NCBI RefSeq assembly: GCF_003697815.1
Contig: NZ_RDQG01000068.1
Location: forward strand, 1 to 39,819
Reading direction: 5' to 3'
From: Halalkalicoccus subterraneus
Lineage (GTDB): Archaea; Halobacteriota; Halobacteria; Halobacteriales; Halalkalicoccaceae
DNA length: 39,819 nt
Position 1 is the stretch's first letter. Each line of letters starts with the position of its first letter. Position numbers and translations under genes: made by a program. The notes under the pieces are model-generated. The model did no database searches. It was not told where the DNA came from and saw only the letters and a program-made list of their open reading frames with translations. Of the stretch, positions 6,988 through 30,758 are shown piece by piece.

Positions 6988-9900
6988 ATGGCAACAACCG
7001 ACCGACACGACCCCGCGACCGACGACCGAGCGAACTACGACTACACGAACGGTGACGTCGAGCGACCCGATCTCGTGGCCGACCTCGAAGACCGCGTCGA
7101 GGGCGACGTCCGCTTCGACGAGTACTCACGGGAGCTGTACGCGACCGACGCCAGCGCCTACGAGGTCACGCCCATCGGCGTGGTCTTCCCGACCGCGACG
7201 GAGGACGTCGCCGCGGTGATGGCCTACTGCGCCGACCGAGAGATCCCCGTGCTGCCCCGCGGCGGCGGGACGAGCCTCGCGGGCCAAGCGGTCAACGAGG
7301 CGGTCGTGCTGGACCTCTCGCGGTACATGACCGACATCACCGACGTGGACCCCGACGCGATGCGGGCACGCGCCCAGACGGGGGTCACGCTCGGCGAACT
7401 TAACCGCACCCTCGAACCAGAGGGGATCAAGTTCGCGCCCGACCCCTCGACGGCCGACCGCAGCGCCTTGGGGGGTGCGATCGGCAACAACACGACCGGC
7501 GCACATTCGCTGCTGTACGGCAAGACCGACGCCTACGTCGAGGAGTGCGAGGCCGTCCTCTCCGATGGCTCGGTCCACACCTTCGGCGAGATCAGCGTCG
7601 AAGAACTCCGAGAGGAGGCCGATCCCGAGGGCGAGGTACTCGAGCGGATCTACGCGGAAGTCGTCCGGATCATCGACGAGGAGAGCGACGCAGTTGCGGA
7701 ACGGTACCCGAGCATGAAGCGAAACGTTTCCGGATATAACCTCGACGTGCTCGTCGAGGAGGCAAGCGAGGCGCAACGCGCCTCGGAGGACACGAGCGGT
7801 GTAACCGCGAGTACTGGGGAAGGAAGCACAGAGGAAGGTGTCGTGAACCTCGCGCGCCTGCTGGTCGGCAGCGAGGGGACGCTCGCCATCGTCACCGAGG
7901 CCGAAGTGAGTCTGGAGCCGATCCCCGAGACGAAGTCGATCGGACTACTTACCTACCACAGTCTGCTGGAGGCGATGGAGGACGTCGGCCCGATCCTCGA
8001 ACACGAACCCGCCGCCCTGGAGGTGCTCGACGGCGTGCTGGTCGACCTCGCGCGCGGGCTCGACGAGTTCAAGGACGTGATCGGAATTCTGCCTGATGAA
8101 ACCGATACCTTCCTCCTGGTCGAGTTCTACGCCGATTCGGACGAGGAGCGCCGGGAGAAGGTCGAGACGCTGCTGGAGGACCGGGTGGGCGAGATCGCCT
8201 TCGGCGGCTACGAGGCCTACGACGAGGAGACCCGGAAGGACTTCTGGAAGATGCGCAAGGCCTCGACGCCGATCCTCCTCTCTCGTACGGGCGACGAGAA
8301 ACACATCGCGTTCATCGAGGACGTCGCGATCCCGCCCGAACACCTCCCGGAGTACACCGCCGACTTCCAGGCGATCTTCGAGGACCACGACACGTTCGGG
8401 AGCTTCTACGCCCACGCCGGTCCGGGATGTATGCACGTCCGTCCGCTGATCGACACTAAAACTGCGGAGGGCGTCGAGACGATGGTTTCGATCTCGGACG
8501 CCGCGACGGATCTCGCGGTGAAATACGGAGGGAGCGTCTCGGGCGAACACGGTGACGGACGGGCCAGAACCCAGTGGAACAGGAAGCTCTACGGCGAGCA
8601 TCTCTGGAACGTGTTCCGCGACCTGAAGACCGCCTTCGACCCCGACTGGCTGCTCAATCCCGGCTCGGTCTGTGGCGACTTCGACATGAGCGAGAACCTC
8701 CGCTTCGGTCCCGACTACGAGTTCGAGGCGGGCTTCGAGCCCGAACTCAACTGGGAGAACGACAACGGCTTTCAGGGGATGGCCGAGCTGTGCCATGGGT
8801 GTGGCGGCTGTCGGACCAGCCAGGACGGAGCCGGCGGCGTGATGTGCCCGACGTATCGGGCCTCCCAGGAGGAGATCACGAGCACGAGAGGGCGGGCGAA
8901 CATGCTCCGGCAGGCGATGAGCGGCGATTTACCCGACGAGGAGCAGTTCGACGTGGAGTTCATGCACGAGGTGATGGACCTCTGTGTGGGCTGTAAGGGC
9001 TGTGCGCGGGACTGTCCCTCCGAGGTCGACATGGCGAAGATGAAGGTCGAGGTCGAACACGAGTACCTGAAGCGTCACGGGGTCGACCTGCGCTCGCGCG
9101 TCTTCGCGCGTATCGACTGGCTCTCGGACCTCGGGAGCGCGACCGCCCCGCTCTCGAACCTCGCGAGTTCGCTCCCCGGGTCGGGACTCGTCACCGAAAA
9201 AGTCCTGGGGATCGCCCGCGAGCGCACCCTGCCGGAGTTCGAGCCCGAGACGCTCACGGAATGGTACGAGAAACGCGGGCCGCAGGTGAGTGAAAAAGAG
9301 GCCGACCGGAAGGTTCTGTTGTTCCCCGATACGTTCACCGACCACAACAACACGAAGGCGGGCAAGGCCGCAATCGAAGTGCTCGAAGCCGCGAACGTTC
9401 ACGTGAGGGTTCCCGAAGGCGTCACCGGCAGCGGCCGGCCGGCCCACTCGAAGGGGATGCTCGACCTCGCGAAGGAGAAGGCCGACCGGAACGTCACCGC
9501 GCTCGCGCCCGACGTGAACGCGGGCTGGGACGTGGTCGTCGTCGAGCCCTCCGACGCCGTGATGTTCCAGTTGGACTACCGCGACCTCCTCTCCGGAGAC
9601 GCGGTCGAACGGGTGGCCGAAAACACCTTCGGCGTCATGGAGTACGTCGATCGGTTCCGCCTCGACGAGACGATGAGCTTCGGCGCGCTCGACGAATCGC
9701 TCACGTATCACGGTCACTGCCACCAGAAGGCGGTCAAGAAGGACCACCACACCGTGGGCGTCCTCCGGCGGGCCGGCTACCGGGTCGACCCGCTGGATTC
9801 AGGCTGTTGCGGAATGGCCGGCTCGTTCGGCTACGAGGCCGAACACTACTCGATGAGCCAGGCGGTCGGCTCCGTGCTGTTCGGACAGATCGAGGAGAGT

Positions 9901-10011
9901 GAGGGAGAGAGCGTCGTCGCCCCGGGTTCGTCGTGTCGCAGCCAGATCGGCGACGAGTACGGCGAAAAGCCGCCCCACCCGGTCAGAAAGCTTGCCGAGG
10001 CGCTGGCCTAA
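6988..10011 (+). CDS. FAD- and Fe-S-binding D-2-hydroxyacid dehydrogenase, YdiJ-type, first copy
   Basis: 1007-residue two-part flavoprotein. The N-terminal half has a type-4 FAD domain (PRGGGTSLAGQ, residues 90-100) and a GlcD-like C-terminal cap. The second half has two Fe-S cysteine clusters (LCHGCGGC near 600, LCVGCKGCARDCPS near 665) and a CCG domain (SGCCGMAGSFGYE near 939). This order and length match E. coli YdiJ, a D-2-hydroxyglutarate dehydrogenase; D-lactate or glycolate are alternatives. ATG 6988 was chosen for its GGAGGAG at 6969-6975. Relative to its paralogue it has an in-frame insert of about 16 residues (near 260-285) carrying hairpins. It overlaps the convergent CoA-transferase by 4 bp. 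Confidence 0.9.
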   Translation: MATTDRHDPATDDRANYDYTNGDVERPDLVADLEDRVEGDVRFDEYSRELYATDASAYEVTPIGVVFPTATEDVAAVMAYCADREIPVLPRGGGTSLAGQAVNEAVVLDLSRYMTDITDVDPDAMRARAQTGVTLGELNRTLEPEGIKFAPDPSTADRSALGGAIGNNTTGAHSLLYGKTDAYVEECEAVLSDGSVHTFGEISVEELREEADPEGEVLERIYAEVVRIIDEESDAVAERYPSMKRNVSGYNLDVLVEEASEAQRASEDTSGVTASTGEGSTEEGVVNLARLLVGSEGTLAIVTEAEVSLEPIPETKSIGLLTYHSLLEAMEDVGPILEHEPAALEVLDGVLVDLARGLDEFKDVIGILPDETDTFLLVEFYADSDEERREKVETLLEDRVGEIAFGGYEAYDEETRKDFWKMRKASTPILLSRTGDEKHIAFIEDVAIPPEHLPEYTADFQAIFEDHDTFGSFYAHAGPGCMHVRPLIDTKTAEGVETMVSISDAATDLAVKYGGSVSGEHGDGRARTQWNRKLYGEHLWNVFRDLKTAFDPDWLLNPGSVCGDFDMSENLRFGPDYEFEAGFEPELNWENDNGFQGMAELCHGCGGCRTSQDGAGGVMCPTYRASQEEITSTRGRANMLRQAMSGDLPDEEQFDVEFMHEVMDLCVGCKGCARDCPSEVDMAKMKVEVEHEYLKRHGVDLRSRVFARIDWLSDLGSATAPLSNLASSLPGSGLVTEKVLGIARERTLPEFEPETLTEWYEKRGPQVSEKEADRKVLLFPDTFTDHNNTKAGKAAIEVLEAANVHVRVPEGVTGSGRPAHSKGMLDLAKEKADRNVTALAPDVNAGWDVVVVEPSDAVMFQLDYRDLLSGDAVERVAENTFGVMEYVDRFRLDETMSFGALDESLTYHGHCHQKAVKKDHHTVGVLRRAGYRVDPLDSGCCGMAGSFGYEAEHYSMSQAVGSVLFGQIEESEGESVVAPGSSCRSQIGDEYGEKPPHPVRKLAEALA
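7767..7808 (+). repeat. two 3-nt-loop hairpins inside an in-frame coding insertion
   Basis: CGAGGCGC-aac-GCGCCTCG at 7767-7785 (8-bp stem) and GCGGT-gta-ACCGC at 7796-7808 (5-bp stem). Both lie in the Ser/Glu/Thr-rich segment absent from the paralogue at 18417-21527. The 3-nt loop design is the same as in the intergenic arrays of this window. Confidence 0.5.
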
Positions 10012-11240
10012 TCGGAGCCGAACGCCCCGCCCGCGGTCCACTCCTCCAACGTCGTCTGGTCGCCCGCCACGTCCTCGAAGACGTCTTCGGTGTGTTCGCC
10101 GAGCCGCGGCGCGGGCTCGCGGATCTCGGGCTCGTAGCCCGCGAAGTCGATCGGGTGACCCGGTAACAGACACTCGCCCCACTCGGGATCCTCATGAGGG
10201 ATCGTCAAATCGCGTGCCGCGGTCTGTTCGTGCTCGACGACGCCCTCGACGTCGTTGATCGGTCCGCAGGGAAAGCCGTATTCAGTAAGTGAGTCGAGCC
10301 AGTGCTCCGTGCTTTCCGTCTCGAACTCCGCCTCGATGATTTCCACAACTTTCTCGGCATGCTCCTGTCGGTCGTCGTTGGTCGGGTACTCCGCGAGCTC
10401 CTCGCGGCCCAGCAGCTCGACAAAGTCACCCCAGCGGTCGTCACTCGGCACGCCCGTGACGAGCGCGCCGTCGGCGGTCTCGAAGCGCTGGTAGGGCACG
10501 AGCGTCTGGTGGCTCGTCCCCTGTGGGCCCGGCACGCTCCCGTCCATCGAGTACTCGGTCAGGTACTCGTTCATGAGCGTCACGATCGAGTCGAACAGCC
10601 CGACGTCGAACTTCCCGACGAATTCCTCGTCCTCGCCCGCGCGCTCGCCCTCGTAGAGCCGGGCGAGGGTGCCCATCGCCGCGAACATCCCCGTCGTCAG
10701 ATCGCCGATGGCTTGGCCCACTTTCACGGGCTGGCCGCCCTCGGGACCGGTGACGCTCATGATCCCGCCCTCGGCCTGGAGGATCATGTCGAGGCCCGGT
10801 TTCTCCTTATACGGCCCGCTCTCGCCGTAGCCCTTGATGCTCGCATAGACGATGTCCGGATTACGCTGGCGGAGGTCCTCGTAGCCGATGCCGAGCTTGT
10901 CGGTGACGCCGTACCCGAAGTTCTCGACGAAGACGTCGGCGGCTTCGAGCAGCGACCGGGCGGCCTCGACGCCCGCCTCGCTCTTGAGGTCGAGCGTCAC
11001 CGACTTCTTGTTCCTGTTGTTCGCCATGAAGTAGCCCGACTTCCCGTCGGGGCCGACGCCCTGCGAGCGCGCGGGGTCGCCCGCGCCGGGACGCTCGATC
11101 TTCACGACCTCCGCGCCCATATCGGCGAGCAGCGCGCCACAGAACGGGCCCGCGCGGTGGGCGGTCATCTCGACGACCGAGACGCCGGCGAGCGGTCCCC
11201 GGTTTCCGTCCCCGTCGGTGTCCGTTTCGCTCACGTTCAC
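10008..11240 (-). CDS. class III CoA-transferase (CaiB/BaiF family), second copy
   Basis: 410-residue family III CoA-transferase with GAEVVKIERPGAGDPARSQG (about 42-61), VFVENFGYGVTDKLGIGY, GGIMSVTGPEGGQPVKVG and the likely catalytic Asp180 in GQAIGDLTTGMFAAMG. Its start codon overlaps the stop of the crotonase gene upstream (ATGA, 11237-11240), so the two are translationally coupled and probably act on the same CoA ester. Only moderately similar to the copy at 5553-6812, so it is probably not a recent duplicate. Confidence 0.88.
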   Translation of the reverse strand: MNVSETDTDGDGNRGPLAGVSVVEMTAHRAGPFCGALLADMGAEVVKIERPGAGDPARSQGVGPDGKSGYFMANNRNKKSVTLDLKSEAGVEAARSLLEAADVFVENFGYGVTDKLGIGYEDLRQRNPDIVYASIKGYGESGPYKEKPGLDMILQAEGGIMSVTGPEGGQPVKVGQAIGDLTTGMFAAMGTLARLYEGERAGEDEEFVGKFDVGLFDSIVTLMNEYLTEYSMDGSVPGPQGTSHQTLVPYQRFETADGALVTGVPSDDRWGDFVELLGREELAEYPTNDDRQEHAEKVVEIIEAEFETESTEHWLDSLTEYGFPCGPINDVEGVVEHEQTAARDLTIPHEDPEWGECLLPGHPIDFAGYEPEIREPAPRLGEHTEDVFEDVAGDQTTLEEWTAGGAFGSD

Positions 11241-12019
11241 TCACCCTCGTTGAACTCATCGACTAGCTCCCGGCGCTCGTCGCTGGCGAACTGTTCCCAC
11301 CAGAGCGCTTCCTCGAACTCGCGGGCGCTCTCCGCGTCGGGTGCTTGGGCCGCCTGATTGAGCGCGCGTTTGGAGTTCTTCACCGCATTTCTACCCGTGT
11401 TCTGGATCCCGTCGATGATCCCGTCGACCGTCGAATCGAGCTCCTCGCGCGGGACCGCGTGATTGATCAGCCCGATCCGTTCTGCCTCTTCCGCGTCGAT
11501 GAAGCCCGCGGTGAAGACGATCTCCTTTGCCTTCGCCTCGCCGACGAGTTCGATCGCGCGCTTGTTCGACCCTCCAGTGGGGATCTGACCGATGTTCGCG
11601 GTCGGTACGCCGAACTTCGCGTCCTCGACGGCGACGCGCATGTCACAGAACATGGCGAAGATCAGCCCGCCACCCACGCAGTAGCCGTTGACCTTCGCGA
11701 TCACGGGTGCGTGGCAGTCGAGCGGCTTCTGGTACATCTCGTAGAACAGCTCCTGACGGTCCTCCTGGTGGGCGTGTTCCTCCGCGGGGCCGGCGTATTC
11801 CGTTATGTCCGCACCCGCCGAGAAGGCGTCCTCGCCCTCGCCGGTGATGACGACCGCGTCGATCTCCCTGTCGAGTTGGATCTCGTCGAAGGCTCGCGAG
11901 AGGTCCAGCATTACCGCGTCGTTCAGCGCGTTGTACACCTCGGGGCGGTGGAACTCGATGGTGGCGATGCTGTCTTCGACGTCGACGCTGATGCTCTCGT
12001 AGGCCGTGTGGCTGACCAT
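11237..12019 (-). CDS. enoyl-CoA hydratase/isomerase (crotonase) family protein
   Basis: 260-residue crotonase-fold protein. The oxyanion-hole segments are visible as FSAGADI (66-72) and NGYCVGGGL (111-119). The two Glu residues that catalyse hydration in classical enoyl-CoA hydratase appear replaced: the GGGCEL position reads GGGLIF, and the PEI position reads PTA (about 139-141). Isomerase, decarboxylase, lyase or CoA-hydrolase chemistry is therefore as likely as hydration. Start set at ATG 12019 (MVSHTAYESI); the longer frame upstream would read towards the repeat element. First gene of a two-gene operon with a CoA-transferase. Confidence 0.83.
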   Translation of the reverse strand: MVSHTAYESISVDVEDSIATIEFHRPEVYNALNDAVMLDLSRAFDEIQLDREIDAVVITGEGEDAFSAGADITEYAGPAEEHAHQEDRQELFYEMYQKPLDCHAPVIAKVNGYCVGGGLIFAMFCDMRVAVEDAKFGVPTANIGQIPTGGSNKRAIELVGEAKAKEIVFTAGFIDAEEAERIGLINHAVPREELDSTVDGIIDGIQNTGRNAVKNSKRALNQAAQAPDAESAREFEEALWWEQFASDERRELVDEFNEGE

Positions 12020-12057: not shown

Positions 12058-12340
12058 GAAAGCCCTCGGAATGCACTGGCGTGCCATTTCTCGCTCGCTC
12101 GTTTCATGTCGCTACGAGAGATCGCTCTGCGGTCTCTCGACGCTGAGCGGCGACGATGTCGCCACGAGGTCCGCGGAAACTCTGTTCCCGCGAGATTCCG
12201 GAAATCTCCGATTTTCCGAGGACCACCAAGCCAGCCGAGTCGCGCCGTGCGACCGCACGGCGCCTCTCGGGAACCTGCCCTTCCCCGTCCCACTCGCGGA
12301 GCCGTCGAGAGTGACGGCTCCGCGAGCACCGGCCACCGCA
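12058..12340 (+). repeat. 282-bp multi-hairpin dispersed element, copy 1
   Basis: Near-full-length reverse complement of 30160-30440. Exact matching blocks of 37, 22, 16, 15 and 31 nt lie in the first 170 bp; homology is weaker but still recognisable to the end (CCTGCCCTTCCCC, ACCGGCCAC). It folds into consecutive hairpins: AGAGATCGC-tct-GCGGTCTCT; GGCGAC-gat-GTCGCC; CGCGGAAAC-tct-GTTCCCGCG; CGGAAATC-tcc-GATTTTCCG; a 10-bp stem at 12242-12263; and GGAGCCGTC/GACGGCTCC near 12298-12321. It fills most of the 390-bp gap between the crotonase and dehydrogenase genes. No ORF is credible in it. Confidence 0.85.
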
Positions 12341-12409: not shown

Positions 12410-13465
12410 ATGTCTTACGAGATCACCACGATCCCGGGCGACGGGATCGGCCCGGAAGTCGTAGAGGCGGCGCTCCCGCTGTTCGAGGAGGTCGCGGGGA
12501 ACCACGGCGTCGAAATCGAGTTCACGCGGTACGACTGGGGGAGCGATCGCTACCTCGAGGAGGGCACGATGATGCCTGAGGACGGCCTCGATCGGATCGA
12601 GGACAGCGACGCGATCCTCTTGGGCGCGGTCGGCCACCCCGAGGTGCCCGATCACGTCACGCTCCACGGTCTGTTGCTCCCCATCCGCAAGGAGTTCGAC
12701 CAGCAGGTCTGCGAGCGCCCGTCGATCCTCTTCGACGGGGTCGAGAGTCCACTGAAAGGCTACGAAGGTGGGGACGTGGACTTTGTCGTCTACCGGGAGA
12801 ACACCGAGGGCGAGTACGCCGACGTCGGCGGGCGCGAACACGTCGGTTTCGACCACGAGATCGCGGTCCAGAGCTCGGTGTTTACCCGCCAGAGCACCGA
12901 GGCGATCCTCCGTGCGGCCTTCGAGGCCGCCGGGGAGCGCGAGGGTCACCTCACGAGCATCACGAAGTCCAACGCCCAGGCCTACAGCATGGTGTTCTGG
13001 GACGACCTCGTCGAGGAGATCAGCGAGGACTACCCCGATATCGAGGTCGAAAGTCTGCTCGTGGACGCAGCCTCGATGGACTTCATCCGCCGGCCCGAGG
13101 AGTTCGACGTGGTCGTCGCCTCGAATCTGTTTGGAGATATTCTGACCGACATCGGCGCGATCGTCACCGGAAGCATGGGTCTCGCTCCCTCGGGTAACGT
13201 CAACCGCTCGGGCGAGTACCCCTCGATGTTCGAACCCGTCCACGGAAGCGCCCCGGACATCGCCGGACAGGGCGTCGCGAACCCGATCGCGACCGTGCTC
13301 TCGGGGGCGATGCTGTTCGAGAACGCCGGGGAGAACGAGGTGTCCGAGGACCTTTGGAGTGCGGTTCGCGAAGTGCTTGCCGACGAATCGGCTCCGACGC
13401 CGCCGGATCTGGGCGGGTCAGCGGACACTGGAGAAATGGTCGCGGCGCTCTCCGAGCGGCTCTAG
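12410..13465 (+). CDS. tartrate / D-malate dehydrogenase-type beta-decarboxylating dehydrogenase
   Basis: 351-residue member of the isocitrate/isopropylmalate dehydrogenase family. IPGDGIGPEV opens the nucleotide fold. LGAVGHPEVPDHVTLHGLLL and RKEFDQQVCERPSILFDGVE match the tartrate/D-malate subgroup rather than LeuB or Icd. YRENTEGEYADVGG, the Lys of ITKSNAQAYS and the metal-binding Asp residues of SNLFGDILTDIGA are present. It would oxidise a D-malate-like acid and release CO2 with NAD. ATG 12410 follows the repeat element by about 70 bp. It overlaps the convergent universal stress gene by 4 bp. Confidence 0.88.
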   Translation: MSYEITTIPGDGIGPEVVEAALPLFEEVAGNHGVEIEFTRYDWGSDRYLEEGTMMPEDGLDRIEDSDAILLGAVGHPEVPDHVTLHGLLLPIRKEFDQQVCERPSILFDGVESPLKGYEGGDVDFVVYRENTEGEYADVGGREHVGFDHEIAVQSSVFTRQSTEAILRAAFEAAGEREGHLTSITKSNAQAYSMVFWDDLVEEISEDYPDIEVESLLVDAASMDFIRRPEEFDVVVASNLFGDILTDIGAIVTGSMGLAPSGNVNRSGEYPSMFEPVHGSAPDIAGQGVANPIATVLSGAMLFENAGENEVSEDLWSAVREVLADESAPTPPDLGGSADTGEMVAALSERL

Positions 13466-18416: not shown

Positions 18417-21400
18417 ATGGCAACGAACACGGGGTCGGCGCGGGACGAGCGGGCGTCGTACGACTACGTCGACGAGGACGAGGCCGTTCCGGACGCGCTG
18501 TCGGCACTCCCCCGGTTGGTCGGCGGCGAGGTCCGCTTCGACGACTACTCGCGGGAACTGTACGCGACCGACGCCAGCGCCTACGAGATGACGCCTATCG
18601 GCGTGGTCTTTCCGACCTCGACTCGGGACGTCCAGGTGGTGATGCGCCACTGCGGGAAGAACGGGATCCCGGTCCTGCCCCGTGGCGGCGGGACGAGCCT
18701 CGCGGGCCAGTCGGTCAACGAGGCGGTCGTCCTCGATTTCACTCGCCACATGGACGGCATCGCCGAGATCGACATCGATGGCCGGCGGGCCCGCGCGGAG
18801 GCGGGCGTCTATCTGGGCGACCTCAACGACGAACTCGCACCCCACGGACTGAAGTTCGCGCCCGATCCCGCCTGGCGCGATAAGAGCGCACTCGGCGGCG
18901 CCATCGGCAACAACTCGACCGGCGCACACTCGTTGAAATACGGCAAGACCGACGCCTATATCGAGGAATGCGAGGTCGTACTCGCGGACGGCACCCGGAC
19001 GACCTTCGGGGAGATAACGCCCGAGGAGATCGACGAGCGAGCCGACTCCGAGGGCGATATCGAGGCCCGGATCCACGCTGCGGTCAAACGGATCATCGAG
19101 GAGGAAGGTGAGGCGATCGAGGAGGCCTACCCCGACCTGAAGCGAAACGTTTCGGGATACAACCTCGATATGCTGATCGAGGAAGCGCGCGCGGTCCGGG
19201 ACGGCGCGACGGAGACGATCAACCTCGCGCGCCTACTCGCCGGTAGCGAGGGCACCCTCGCCATTATCACCGAGGCCGAGGTCTCGCTCGAACCGATCCC
19301 CGAGACCAAGGCGATGGCGCTGCTGACCTACGACACCCTGATCGACGCGATGGAGGACGTCGCGCCGATCCTCGAACACGACCCCGCCGCCGTCGAGGTG
19401 ATGGACGACGTCCTCTTGGACCTCGCCCGCGAAACCGAGGAGTTCGCGGACGTCGTCTCGATGCTCCCGCCAGAGGCGTCTTCGGTCCTCATCGTCGAGT
19501 TCTACGCCGGGAACGATCCAGAGGGCTTGAAGAAGGTCGCGGGCCTGCTCGCGGATCGAGCGCCGGAGGCCGACCACGAGGGCGAATTGGGCGAGAATCG
19601 AGCGAAAACCGACGCCCCGATCAACGCGACGGCGGCGATGGAGGCCCACGACGCCGACGAGCGCGCGTTGTTCTGGAAGATGCGAAAGAGCGGGCTGCCG
19701 ATTTTGCTCTCCCGTACCAGCGACGAGAAACACATCTCCTTCATCGAGGACTGTGCAGTGCCCCCCGAGCACCTCCCCGAGTACGCCCGCGAGTTCCAGG
19801 AGATCCTCGAGGACAACGGTACCTTCGCGAGCATTTACGCCCACGCCGGCCCCGGCGTGCTTCACGTCCGCCCGCTGATCAACACCAAGAACGTCGAGGA
19901 GGTCGAGGCGATGGTCGACATCGCGGATCGAGTAACCGACGCCGTCGCGCGATTCGGCGGGAGCGTCTCGGGCGAACACGGCGACGGTAGAGCCAGAACC
20001 CAGTGGAACAGGAAGCTCTACGGCGACCATCTATGGAGCGTCTTCCGCGACCTGAAGACGGCGTTCGATCCCGACTGGCTGTTGAATCCCGGCTCGGTCT
20101 GTGGCGACTTCGACATGAGCGAGCATCTCCGGTTCGACCCGGACTACGAGTTCGAGATGGGCTTCGATCCGGTGCTGGAGTGGGACAACGAGAACGGCTT
20201 TCAGGGGATGGCCGAGCTTTGCCATGGGTGTGGCGGCTGTCGTGGACCCCAGGAGACCACCGGTGGGGTGATGTGTCCGACGTTCCGCGCGAGCGAGGAG
20301 GAGATCACGAGCACGCGGGGCCGAGCGAACATGCTCCGACAGGCCATGAGCGGCGATCTCCCCGATGGCGAGGCCTTCAGCGACGAGTTCGTCACCGAGG
20401 TGATGGACCTGTGTATCGGCTGTAAGGGCTGTGCGAAGGACTGCCCCTCCGAGGTCGACATGGCCAAACTCAAGGCCGAGGTGACCCACGAACACCACCA
20501 ACGCCACGGTGCGGGCCTGCGCTCCCGGATGTTCGCGAACATCGATACCCTCTCGAAACTGGGGAGCGCAACCGCACCCGTCTCGAACTGGCTGTCCGAA
20601 CTGCCGGGCGCACGCATCGCGATGGAAAAGGCGATCGGGATCGCCCGCGAGCGTGAGCTTCCGACCTTCCACCGCGAGACCCTCGTCGACTGGTTCGATG
20701 AGCGTGGCCCACGGGTCAGCGAATCGGACGCGGAGCGGAAGGTCCTGCTCGTTCCCGACACCTACACCAACCACAACCACCCCGCGGTCGGCAGGGACGC
20801 CGTCCGAGTCCTCGAAAGCGCGGGCGTCCACGTCCAACTCGCGGACGTCGGCGACAGCGGCCGACCCGCCTTCTCGAAGGGCTTTCTCGACGCCGCCCGC
20901 GAGCGTGCCGAGGAGAACGTCGCGGAACTGGCACCCCGGATCGAGGCGGGCTGGGACGTGGTGGTCTGTGAGCCCACGGATGCCGTGATGTTCCAGTCGG
21001 ACTACCTCGACCTGCTTTCGGGCGATAGCGCGGAGCAGAGTCGTGGGAAATCAGGGATTCCCGGATCTAGCGAGTCTTCCGATTCGCCAGACTCCGCGGA
21101 CCGTTCGAGCGGGCAACACCCGCGAGAAGGTGCTGTCGAGTCGGTGGCCATCAACACCTTCGGCGTCATGGAGTACGTCAACGCCTTCGACCTCGACCTC
21201 CCGGACGGCGAGGGATCGCTGACCTATCACGGCCACTGCCACCAGAAGGCGACGAAAAAGGACGTCCACGCCGCGGCGGTGCTCTCGCGGGCGGGCTACG
21301 ACGTCGACGTCCTCGATTCGGGCTGCTGTGGGATGGCCGGTTCGTTCGGCTACGAGGCCGACCACTACGCCATGAGCGAGGCGATCGGCTCGATCCTCGT

Positions 21401-21527
21401 CGATCAAGTAGCGGAAAGCCCGGGCGAGCGGGTCGTCGCACCCGGTGCCTCGTGTCGCGGCCAGTTGGAAGACCTCACCGACGAGGAACCGCCCCACCCG
21501 ATCAGCGTGCTCGCGGAGGGACTGTAA
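18417..21527 (+). CDS. FAD- and Fe-S-binding D-2-hydroxyacid dehydrogenase, YdiJ-type, second copy
   Basis: 1036-residue paralogue of the enzyme at 6988-10011, with high identity along its length: PRGGGTSLAGQSVNEAVVLDF, the GCGGCRGPQ Fe-S cluster, CIGCKGCAKDCPSEVDMAKL and SGCCGMAGSFGYEADHYAMS. The first part should oxidise a D-2-hydroxyacid with FAD, and the Fe-S/CCG part pass electrons to the respiratory chain or a partner. Compared with copy 1 it has two extra segments: one near residues 380-410 (EADHEGELGENRAKTDAPIN), and a Ser-rich one of about 35 residues near 877-910 (RGKSGIPGSSESSDSPDS) whose DNA resembles the dispersed repeat. Last gene of the VOC-cupin operon. Confidence 0.9.
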   Translation: MATNTGSARDERASYDYVDEDEAVPDALSALPRLVGGEVRFDDYSRELYATDASAYEMTPIGVVFPTSTRDVQVVMRHCGKNGIPVLPRGGGTSLAGQSVNEAVVLDFTRHMDGIAEIDIDGRRARAEAGVYLGDLNDELAPHGLKFAPDPAWRDKSALGGAIGNNSTGAHSLKYGKTDAYIEECEVVLADGTRTTFGEITPEEIDERADSEGDIEARIHAAVKRIIEEEGEAIEEAYPDLKRNVSGYNLDMLIEEARAVRDGATETINLARLLAGSEGTLAIITEAEVSLEPIPETKAMALLTYDTLIDAMEDVAPILEHDPAAVEVMDDVLLDLARETEEFADVVSMLPPEASSVLIVEFYAGNDPEGLKKVAGLLADRAPEADHEGELGENRAKTDAPINATAAMEAHDADERALFWKMRKSGLPILLSRTSDEKHISFIEDCAVPPEHLPEYAREFQEILEDNGTFASIYAHAGPGVLHVRPLINTKNVEEVEAMVDIADRVTDAVARFGGSVSGEHGDGRARTQWNRKLYGDHLWSVFRDLKTAFDPDWLLNPGSVCGDFDMSEHLRFDPDYEFEMGFDPVLEWDNENGFQGMAELCHGCGGCRGPQETTGGVMCPTFRASEEEITSTRGRANMLRQAMSGDLPDGEAFSDEFVTEVMDLCIGCKGCAKDCPSEVDMAKLKAEVTHEHHQRHGAGLRSRMFANIDTLSKLGSATAPVSNWLSELPGARIAMEKAIGIARERELPTFHRETLVDWFDERGPRVSESDAERKVLLVPDTYTNHNHPAVGRDAVRVLESAGVHVQLADVGDSGRPAFSKGFLDAARERAEENVAELAPRIEAGWDVVVCEPTDAVMFQSDYLDLLSGDSAEQSRGKSGIPGSSESSDSPDSADRSSGQHPREGAVESVAINTFGVMEYVNAFDLDLPDGEGSLTYHGHCHQKATKKDVHAAAVLSRAGYDVDVLDSGCCGMAGSFGYEADHYAMSEAIGSILVDQVAESPGERVVAPGASCRGQLEDLTDEEPPHPISVLAEGL
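21036..21146 (+). repeat. in-frame palindromic insert related to the dispersed multi-hairpin element
   Basis: This stretch is absent from the paralogous gene. It contains GGGAA(A)TC-agg-GATTCCC at 21045-21062, then GGATCT at 21063, GAGTCT/AGACTC arms, TCCGCGGACC at 21093-21102, and GCGGG-caaca-CCCGC near 21110-21124. Copy 2 of the element has, in the same order, GGAAAATC-gga-GATTTCC (30285-30302), GGATCT (30304), a stem, and TCCGCGGACC (30325-30334). The gene stays in frame. Confidence 0.6.
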
Positions 21528-27870: not shown

Positions 27871-28494
27871 ATGGACAGCAAGCGGGCGCTCGAACGCCGC
27901 CTCTCCCTCGTTCGGGGATTCGACGCTCCGAGCGCGGAGCTGGAACAGTACTCCACGCCCGCCGACATCGCCGCCCAGCTCGTCCACCTCGCCGACCTAC
28001 AGGGCGACCTCGACGGCCGCGTCGTCGACCTCGGAACGGGCACCGGAATGCTCGCCCTCGGCGCCGCGCTGCGGGCTCCAACGGGGGTGGTCGGATTGGA
28101 TGCGGATCGCGCGGCACTCACCGTCGCCCGAGAAAACGAGCGCCGGGTCGAACCCCCCATCGGGATCGACTGGCTGTGCGGCGACGGCGGGCGTCTCCCC
28201 CTCACGCTCTCGAACGCGACCGTGCTCATGAACCCGCCGTTCGGCGCCCAGCGGGGCAATCGCGGTGCGGATCGGCGATTTCTCGTCACCGCCCACGAGA
28301 TTGCGGACGTGATTTACTCGATCCACAACGCCGGCAGCCGCGAGTTCGTCGAATCGTTCGTCGCCGATCACGGTGGAGTGGTTACCCACGCCTACGAACT
28401 CTCCTTCGACCTCGAACGCCAGTTCGACTTCCATACCGAGGAAACGCGGACGATCCGCGCGGAGTGTTACCGGTCATCGTTTCGGGGGGCGTAG
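27871..28494 (+). CDS. METTL5-like N6-adenine rRNA methyltransferase
   Basis: 207-residue SAM-dependent methyltransferase. Motif I is VVDLGTGTGMLALGA (52-66) and the N6-adenine catalytic motif is NPPFG (121-125). The N-terminal STPADIAAQLVHLA and C-terminal FDFHTEETRTIRAECYR match METTL5, which methylates a conserved adenine of small-subunit rRNA. In archaea the partner and target are less well defined. ATG 27871 follows the upstream gene by 31 bp. The 3' end overlaps the convergent rhomboid gene by 28 bp. Confidence 0.87.
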   Translation: MDSKRALERRLSLVRGFDAPSAELEQYSTPADIAAQLVHLADLQGDLDGRVVDLGTGTGMLALGAALRAPTGVVGLDADRAALTVARENERRVEPPIGIDWLCGDGGRLPLTLSNATVLMNPPFGAQRGNRGADRRFLVTAHEIADVIYSIHNAGSREFVESFVADHGGVVTHAYELSFDLERQFDFHTEETRTIRAECYRSSFRGA

Positions 28495-30086
28495 GTCTCT
28501 CGTTCGGCGATCGGAACGGCGCTCGTGTCGTCGCTTGCGACGAGTCGACCGTCATCGTTCGCGATCGTGAGCCCGTTGACGGTTCTGACCTCGCCCGTCT
28601 CGGGGAGCACGGCGCGTTCGCGGGCGCTCGCGTTCTCGACCTCGACGAGGAATTCGCCCGACTCACTGAGCAGGGTGATCGTCCGACCGTCGACGACCGC
28701 GTCGGCCCTCGCGGGCTCGGAGTCGTAGGCATGGATGCGCTCGCCGTCGGTTTCGAACTCGACGGCGTAGATCCGGTCGTCGCCGACGATCCATCCGGTC
28801 CGCTCGACGTGGATCGCCTCGCTCCAGGTCAGTCCGCCGACCCTGACGGTGGCGGTCCCGTAGGTTTCGAGGGCCGTGGTCGACACCTCCCGACCCCAGA
28901 CGTGGCGCTCGTCGCTGGTGACGATCACGCCGCTGGTGGTCACGTTCGTCGACTCGCCGAGCGCCTCGATCTCGACGACCGAGAACATCCGGTCCTCGAC
29001 CTCCTCGTCGTAGAAGACGGTGTAGTCCCCGGCGGTGACCGCCCCGTCACGGGACGTGTCCTCGACGGTCGTGAGGTTGAGCGGGACCGCGACGAGACAC
29101 ATGACGAGGAGGGGGACGACGAGTGCCCCGGCCGCGGTCTGTTTGAGCGTCACCTCGCCGACCAACGGACGTTTGGGAGCGGCGATCGCGGCGGTGATCA
29201 GCACCGAGAGTGCGAGGACCAGAACGACGCCCAGTGCGCGATAGAGGACGTACGTCCTCGCGCCGCGGATCCACCAGACCGCCCACAGCGACAGCGAGAG
29301 CGTCGTCAATAGCGTTCCGAGCCAGAGCCGCGCCGCGTCCGGATCGACCCGACGCCGCCACAACAGCGCGATCCCGAGGAGGACGCCGATGAGGAAGCCG
29401 ATCGCGTGGCCCTGGATCGCGATCCCGTACCACCACGGTGGGGAGACGCCCGCAGTCACCTCGACGACCGAGACGGGGTCGCCGAGCGCGCCGGTGAGGG
29501 TCCTGATCGCGCTTCTGACCGCGAGCGCGACGACGGTCAAAAGCGGGTAACGCACGAGGACGAAGCCGATCAGCGCGAAGACGGTGCCCGAAAAGCCGAT
29601 GACGGGTCCCCACGAGAAGAGGCTCGTCACGATCCCGACGGCGAGGACGCCCAGAGCGAAGCCGACGGCCCGACCACGCGGGTCGGTAATCCGGGCGGTC
29701 CCGTCGGAGTAGTGGCCCCAGACGTACTCGGCGAGCGGGGCGAACACGAGCGCAGTAGTGAGGTTTCCTTCCAGATGCCCGGGGCCGACGTGAGCGAAGC
29801 CCGCGAACAGCATTCCGAGCGGGGAGAAGTACGACCACGCCGAAAACGGGATCGCGAGGGGTGCGCCGGGGTGCCAGAGCCCGCCCTGGACGAACAGGTA
29901 CACTCCGAGCACCCACCCGAACACGAGCAGCGATCCCCACGGTACCCCGCGGTGGAAACGCTCGTGGAGCGCGGAGCCGATCCCCTGATGGTCGGCAAAG
30001 CGGGAGACGAGCCAGACCGAGCCGACCAGTGCACCGACGACGAGGGCCTGCCACGCGAGGGCGACGAGGGCGTCGGCGACCGACAT
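28467..30086 (-). CDS. rhomboid family intramembrane serine protease
   Basis: 539-residue membrane protein. The rhomboid core covers about residues 10-240. HVGPGHLEGN (99-108) supplies the His and Asn of the loop/TM2 motif, GFSG places the catalytic Ser166, and GHAIGFLIGVLLG gives His227. About two further helices follow, then an extracytoplasmic C-terminal domain of some 200 residues, rich in strands (VGGLTWSEAIHVERTGWIVG), with no known family. The soluble tail is unusual and may bind substrate. Overlaps the METTL5-like gene by 28 bp tail to tail. Confidence 0.88.
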   Translation of the reverse strand: MSVADALVALAWQALVVGALVGSVWLVSRFADHQGIGSALHERFHRGVPWGSLLVFGWVLGVYLFVQGGLWHPGAPLAIPFSAWSYFSPLGMLFAGFAHVGPGHLEGNLTTALVFAPLAEYVWGHYSDGTARITDPRGRAVGFALGVLAVGIVTSLFSWGPVIGFSGTVFALIGFVLVRYPLLTVVALAVRSAIRTLTGALGDPVSVVEVTAGVSPPWWYGIAIQGHAIGFLIGVLLGIALLWRRRVDPDAARLWLGTLLTTLSLSLWAVWWIRGARTYVLYRALGVVLVLALSVLITAAIAAPKRPLVGEVTLKQTAAGALVVPLLVMCLVAVPLNLTTVEDTSRDGAVTAGDYTVFYDEEVEDRMFSVVEIEALGESTNVTTSGVIVTSDERHVWGREVSTTALETYGTATVRVGGLTWSEAIHVERTGWIVGDDRIYAVEFETDGERIHAYDSEPARADAVVDGRTITLLSESGEFLVEVENASARERAVLPETGEVRTVNGLTIANDDGRLVASDDTSAVPIAERETYAPRNDDR

Positions 30087-30159: not shown

Positions 30160-30440
30160 TGCAGTGGCCGGTCCGAGCGTGGGCGGCACTCACGTCGCCC
30201 GCGTGAGGAGGGTGGGGAAGGGCTGGCGTTCCCGGAAGCGGCGCGTGATCACGCGCCGCGACTCGGCAGTGCCTGGTGGTCCTCGGAAAATCGGAGATTT
30301 CCGGGATCTCGCGGGAACAGGGTTTCCGCGGACCTCGCGGCGACATCGTCGCCGCTCAGCGCCGAGAGATCGCTCCGCGGTCTCTCATAGCGACATGAAA
30401 AGGGCGAGAAATGGCACGCCAGTGCATTCCGAGGGCTTTC
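30160..30440 (-). repeat. 282-bp multi-hairpin dispersed element, copy 2
   Basis: Inverted relative to copy 1 (12058-12340). It contains a perfect 22-nt palindrome at 30238-30259, CGGAAAATC-gga-GATTTCCG, CGCGGGAAC-agg-GTTTCCGCG, GGCGAC-atc-GTCGCC and AGAGATCGC-tcc-GCGGTCTCT. The GAAAGCCC end lies 36 bp before the rpoL start, much as copy 1 ends 38 bp before the crotonase start. The 390-bp gap between the rhomboid and rpoL genes holds little else. Confidence 0.85.
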
Positions 30441-30476: not shown

Positions 30477-30758
30477 ATGGAACTACGCGTACTCTCCCGG
30501 GAGGATCAGGAGTTGGCGCTGGAAATCGCCGGCGAGGACCATACGTTCATGAACGTTCTCAAGGGAGCGCTGCTCGAAACCGATGGAGTCGTCGCCGCGA
30601 CCTACGACGTCAACCCCGAACAATCCGGCGGCCAGACCGACCCCGTGCTTACCGTCACGACCGAATCGAGCGTCGACCCGCTGGATGCGATCGGCGCGGC
30701 CGCGGCGGAGATCCAGGAGACGACCGATTCCTTCCGCGACGCCTACGCCGCGGCCTAA
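30477..30758 (+). CDS. rpoL: DNA-directed RNA polymerase subunit L (Rpo11)
   Basis: 93-residue archaeal subunit L, which pairs with RpoD in the alpha-like assembly platform of RNA polymerase. Hallmarks are [22 protein letters not shown] and a C-terminal helix ([20 protein letters not shown]). ATG 30477 was chosen because MELRVL is the family start; an in-frame ATG at 30411 would add residues encoded by the dispersed element. The promoter must lie in the 36 bp between element and gene, or in the element itself. Convergent with hisF. Confidence 0.94.

Follow-up and report, generated by a model that had tools for sequence, protein, structure and literature searches.

Palindrome-associated transposable elements (PATEs) are abundant in the haloarchaeon Haloquadratum (H. 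walsbyi) (PMC3119063). They are the closest described haloarchaeal elements to the repeat reported here. In bacteria, the REP/BIME elements with RAYT combine palindromes with constant linkers into mosaics that occupy intergenic DNA at gene borders; BIMEs lie mostly at 3′ ends and conserve their palindrome sequence. The BOX elements of pneumococcus are modular intergenic repeats with optional internal modules, and to our knowledge they have no border-fixed left end. Integron attC sites are imperfect hairpins next to stop codons, with variable sequence and constant structure.

The window (the whole 39,819-nucleotide stretch of Halalkalicoccus subterraneus DNA that was analysed) contains two inverted copies of a multi-hairpin sequence, at 12058–12340 on the forward strand (283 bp) and 30160–30440 on the reverse strand (281 bp), which share 83% identity (BLAST, query 9–291, E 1.7e-77); within the inverted arms, one block of 37 nt matches exactly and a 138-nt arm is 91% identical. 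The sequence-only reading had seen a near-full-length inverted pair here, repeated and rich in hairpins, with shared ends, no ORF and no name that it recognized, and all of this stands. No protein of the kind it had raised as a counter-explanation accounts for the window copies, the ORFs that cross them being out-of-frame readings. Neither are these the only two copies in existence, as it had also allowed for: about 10 copies, along with fragments, occur in this Halalkalicoccus genome alone, where the element is a chromosomal multi-copy family, and well over a hundred have been read in the class. The two window sequences are thus copies of a widespread family of haloarchaeal non-coding elements that is undescribed in the searchable literature; searches for haloarchaeal intergenic palindromes, REP, MITE and the terminal sequence returned only PATEs as close, and Rfam gave no match apart from a chance microRNA match at a relaxed threshold.

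Copy 1 (12058–12340, +), in the size class of about 281 nt, begins 38 nt upstream of the ATG of echA (enoyl-CoA hydratase, Pfam ECH_1; 11240–12019, −), which diverges from it, and is followed by a gene of the isocitrate/isopropylmalate dehydrogenase family (Pfam Iso_dh; 12410–13465, +) that reads in the same direction as the element. Its left part (12058–12105, +) consists of the terminus GAAAGCCCTC, a left hairpin with loop TGGC, whose stem is imperfect in this copy, and linker 2. Internal hairpin modules follow at 12113–12225 (+; AGAGATCGC../GCGGTCTCT, GCGGCGACGATGTCGCC and GGAAATCTCCGATTTTCC), which are missing in the 165-nt size class, then the conserved middle hairpin at 12240–12275 (+; GCGCCGTGCGACCGCACGGCGC) and the right part at 12276–12340 (+), made up of the linker CCTGCCCTTCCCCG, the right hairpin CTCGCGGAGCCGTC..GACGGCTCCGCGAG and the terminal CGGCCACCG near 12338. 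Copy 2 (30160–30440, −) has 30440 as its left end, which leaves 36 nt before the ATG (30477) of the RNA polymerase subunit L gene rpoL (Pfam RNA_pol_L_2; 30477–30758, +), again diverging from the element, and a rhomboid-family gene on its right (Pfam Rhomboid; 28467–30086, −), again in the direction of the element. Both copies lie between divergent genes, with the GAAAGCCC end toward the left gene in each. Elsewhere in the window, segments 7096–9989 and 18519–21508 are co-linear and 73–79% identical, about 11.4 kb apart, and are probably paralogous gene clusters.

With a model of the left 50 nt, the family is detected in 69 of the 391 haloarchaeal genomes sampled, spread over 30 of 86 genera and 8 families, a count that includes the weakest matches (E near 1e-6, mainly in family f13 and some in f4) on the model match alone; most haloarchaeal genomes are without it. 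Each Halalkalicoccus genome has between 8 and at least 15 copies, those of genus g8 of f7 have 9–13, f8 genomes one each and f5 genomes one or two, and none were found in plasmids, phages or viral contigs. Iterated profile searches over the fetched loci yielded 37 complete copies with common ends, mainly of about 165, 223 and 280 nt, lengths that differ by whole internal hairpin modules. The shared layout runs from GAAAGCCCTC through a 9-bp stem with loop TGGC, TCGCCCTTTTCATGTCC and the optional hairpins to CCAGG, the middle hairpin, CC(A/T)GCCCTTCCCCG, the right hairpin and CGGCCACCG. Constant linkers, near-invariant between families, separate the hairpins; they are strand-asymmetric and rich in pyrimidines, with GCCCTY in three of them.

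Several variants of this layout were seen. Some copies carry extra hairpins inside the left-hairpin loop with the outer stem still paired, giving branched palindromes (L057, L265, L281, L012, L253); others have an added hairpin module, GCTCACGG..CCGTTCGCCAGCGAGATTGC, near the right end, at times as a hairpin array (L033, L045, L046, L052, L059, L086), or a left module of about 51 nt duplicated in tandem (L056, L060, L120, L176, L232, L344). At L130 and L209 there is a second element-like sequence, inverted (CGGGGAAGGGCAGG), as though the convergent gene carried a copy too. Linker 2 and the first base of the left end change together, AAAAG going with CTTTTT and GAAAG with CTTTTC (L353, L354, L360, L343 and L323 versus the rest), which suggests an outer stem that would extend to the stop codon. 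Exact matches to the left-end pattern at L133, L134 and L139 lack both hairpin and linker and were discarded as chance.

The position of the left end is closely tied to gene borders. About 95% of left ends with resolvable context, counted with miscalled antisense ORFs corrected by eye, fall either at −7 to +3 of a stop codon or about 34–45 nt upstream of a divergent ATG. At stop codons the junction is often T|GA, with the GA contributed by the element. The element is polar, gaps on the right being looser than those on the left, and it shows no clear preference between 3′ and 5′ gene borders. Exceptions are the second modules of tandem copies (L056, L120, L176, L344), L003, where an ATG lies 6 nt from the copy, and L050 and its orthologues, in which the gene runs on into the element and terminates inside the left stem, such that the protein C-terminus would be element-encoded. 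At L050, L117, L170, L189 and L191 the upstream gene apparently ends inside the left stem (..MQTKAL..), the stem sequence being species-dependent. At L047, L004 and L065 the element sits between gyrB and a gyrA-like gene (starting MSSDVP) for which no obvious promoter was seen by eye.

Different families carry the element at some of the same housekeeping-gene borders. Its most widespread host is a gene whose product has Beta-Casp and RMMBL domains and which we take to be aCPSF1 from its C-terminal motif and general knowledge. Its stop codon bears the element in families f1, f6, f7 and f8, with unrelated DNA there in other genomes; automatic gene calls had put several of these copies at antisense ORFs, and they were reassigned by eye. 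In f8 (Natrialbaceae-type) the copy is present at this stop codon in 22 of 22 genomes read, with one match per genome to the left-end model R1. Two or more families also share the element at the borders of these genes, named by eye from protein sequence: gdh, ileS, phoU, a TPR gene, an eIF2B-like gene, a ferredoxin-reductase-like gene, a small DUF gene ending RYQ(F/M) and a gene ending DMWYSEV..FL.

The sequences do not follow the positions. For elements at loci common to different genera, the best match is to another locus in the same genus in 49 of 49 cases, and copies at the same locus in different genera score 62.1 bits, the background level seen for different loci in different genera (62.9 bits). 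Positions are therefore common between genera and sequence is homogenized within them, reflecting either ancient positions with sequence exchange among copies or re-colonization of the same sites in each lineage. Within a genus, copies at the same locus score higher (143 bits) than those at different loci (110 bits).

The stems are free in sequence as well. Left stems occur as 85 distinct sequences that retain complementarity, with 92.8% of cells paired and 152 cells changed on both sides, and the covariation score is 0.992 versus 0.281 when shuffled and at most 0.164 when slid, indicating that structure is kept and sequence is free. G.U pairs are tolerated in RNA helices, yet among 498 distinct hairpins with 4751 Watson-Crick pairs there are 46 G.T and 72 A.C mismatches, with 18 and 21, respectively, in the left stem only and 7 of each in the single-locus f8 copies. 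Since G.T is not commoner than A.C, the two strands appear equivalent, as in DNA palindromes, and loops and their complements (TTC/GAA, TCC/GGA) are about equally frequent. The mismatch counts favour a constraint that looks like that on DNA palindromes rather than on RNA helices, or for a mutational process that perfects palindromes.

The element is a good candidate for a gene-border or insulator element. We tentatively favour reading it as an ancient, cis-acting DNA element, polar, modular and palindromic, that may mark the border of a transcription unit, a proposal that falls a little short of being probable; it corresponds best, at the DNA level, to the transcription or topology element that was one of three guesses in the sequence-only reading, next to a mobile element and a small RNA, both of which fare worse. 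Somewhat more doubtful is the fuller version, in which cruciform-forming modular palindromes would constitute a class-wide archaeal border element at the edges of housekeeping units, aCPSF1 included, with positions persisting between families and sequences evolving in concert within each genus. On the favoured reading, the palindromes would act as DNA where the edges of transcription units are under supercoil stress, either by cruciform extrusion or by hairpin formation on single strands exposed there; the linkers may be bound by protein, and neighbouring units would be insulated topologically or transcriptionally. Copies would spread and be homogenized through recombination or some mobilizing activity. 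Some considerations count against a border element. Loss is tolerated: in Halalkalicoccus, four genomes (G000, G001, G002, G004) carry the element at rpoL, whereas G005 keeps no more than a stub of the left end and the site is empty in G003 and G006, and at echA the site is empty in G003 with a right-end-like stub left behind. The absence of the element from most haloarchaeal genomes counts the same way. Mutation by template switching can also keep palindromes perfect without selection, and an RNA function, too, would predict pyrimidine-rich, strand-asymmetric linkers.

A second reading, which we regard as somewhat unlikely, is a mobile but non-autonomous palindromic repeat, akin to PATEs or REP/BIME, that would move through a single-stranded DNA intermediate with left-hand TNC-N3-Y targeting, its positions being simply harmless sites. 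The left flanks point this way, the only marked preferences among 54 distinct contexts being for T at −7 (41 contexts) and C at −5 (31), as do the shared ends and size classes of a multi-copy family, homogeneity within genera, a copy number per genome that ranges from 1 up to 15 or more, gain or loss within a genus, tandem left modules and the abundance of PATEs in Haloquadratum (PMC3119063). However, a three-base motif cannot account for fixed distances to stop codons and promoters, positions −4 to −1 hold no fixed target word 5′ of the left end, the same loci are filled in different families, and a single copy is kept at one locus in 22 genomes. The ends show no terminal inverted repeat (identity 0.29), and there is no target duplication (shared word 3.39 versus 3.21 with swapped partners, sd 0.13). 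The Y1 transposase PF01797 was undetected in seven copy-bearing genomes (G001, G002, G003, G006, G052, G189, G124), some of these assemblies being incomplete. A classical non-autonomous transposon, as guessed from the sequence, is thus disfavoured by the missing terminal repeats, target duplication and consistent transposase and by positions common to several families. Among specific candidates, a MITE was rejected for want of terminal repeats and target-site duplication, and Y1 transposase was rejected as the driver, PF01797 being undetected in several copy-rich genomes.

A third reading, which we consider unlikely, is a transcribed RNA element, serving as a terminator or mRNA 3′-end signal for transcription leaving the left gene (in the sense direction at stop codons, divergent antisense at promoters) and perhaps linked to aCPSF1. 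The outward polarity is fixed, elements begin right at stop codons, the hairpins are followed by linkers rich in U and C, and the element strand folds much better as RNA than its dinucleotide shuffles do (z −5.5), compared with a moderate difference as DNA (z −2.1). The element also lies at the aCPSF1 stop codon in four families, and aCPSF1 is described as a termination factor that works generally in archaea, together with U-tracts (PMC7515710, PMC8716108). Against this, G.U is not in excess over A.C in the hairpins, there is no Rfam match, and a large share of copies, both window ones included, lie upstream of promoters; moreover, one copy lies between gyrB and the gyrA-like gene that has no obvious promoter of its own. 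The lack of wobble enrichment and the promoter-side copies similarly disfavour the small RNA of the sequence-only reading. That an ancient repeat persists as neutral debris with no present function, its palindromes maintained by template switching, would suit the element's frequent loss, patchy distribution and variable modules but is very improbable given the near-invariant linkers and the positions conserved between families.

Should the border-element reading be true, haloarchaea would possess a polar DNA element dedicated to gene borders and comparable to BIMEs, but bound to a single gene edge and with its loci conserved between families. It would offer a route into how archaea keep neighbouring transcription units apart, and a clear natural case of shared positions combined with sequence homogenization within genomes. 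Because f8 genomes have their copy at the stop codon of aCPSF1, a link to transcription termination is directly testable in culturable Natrinema.

Compared with known systems, the element shares compensatory stem changes with structured RNA families but has neither an Rfam match nor an excess of G.U over A.C, and unlike transcription terminators it is not confined to 3′ ends of transcription units, many copies being upstream of divergent genes. It resembles BOX in being modular and intergenic with optional inner modules, and differs in domain of life and in sequence. Like attC sites, it has hairpins of constant structure and variable sequence beside stop codons, but it is found at fixed housekeeping genes, with many of its copies on the promoter side, and no cassette array was seen. 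With REP/BIME it shares intergenic mosaics of palindromes with constant linkers, whereas its stems vary freely and many copies lie upstream of promoters; REP/BIME with RAYT was set aside as an identity, as no REP-associated Y1 (RAYT) transposase or RAYT-type partner was found. The likeness to PATEs (PMC3119063) is closest, both being haloarchaeal, short, non-coding and multi-copy, with near-end palindromes, internal deletions, and neither terminal inverted repeats nor target duplication. Unlike PATEs (PMC3119063), the element lacks an adjacent 4–6-bp target word and a consistently present Y1 transposase, and it is set apart from them by a left end fixed at gene borders, loci conserved between families and stems that are not conserved in sequence.
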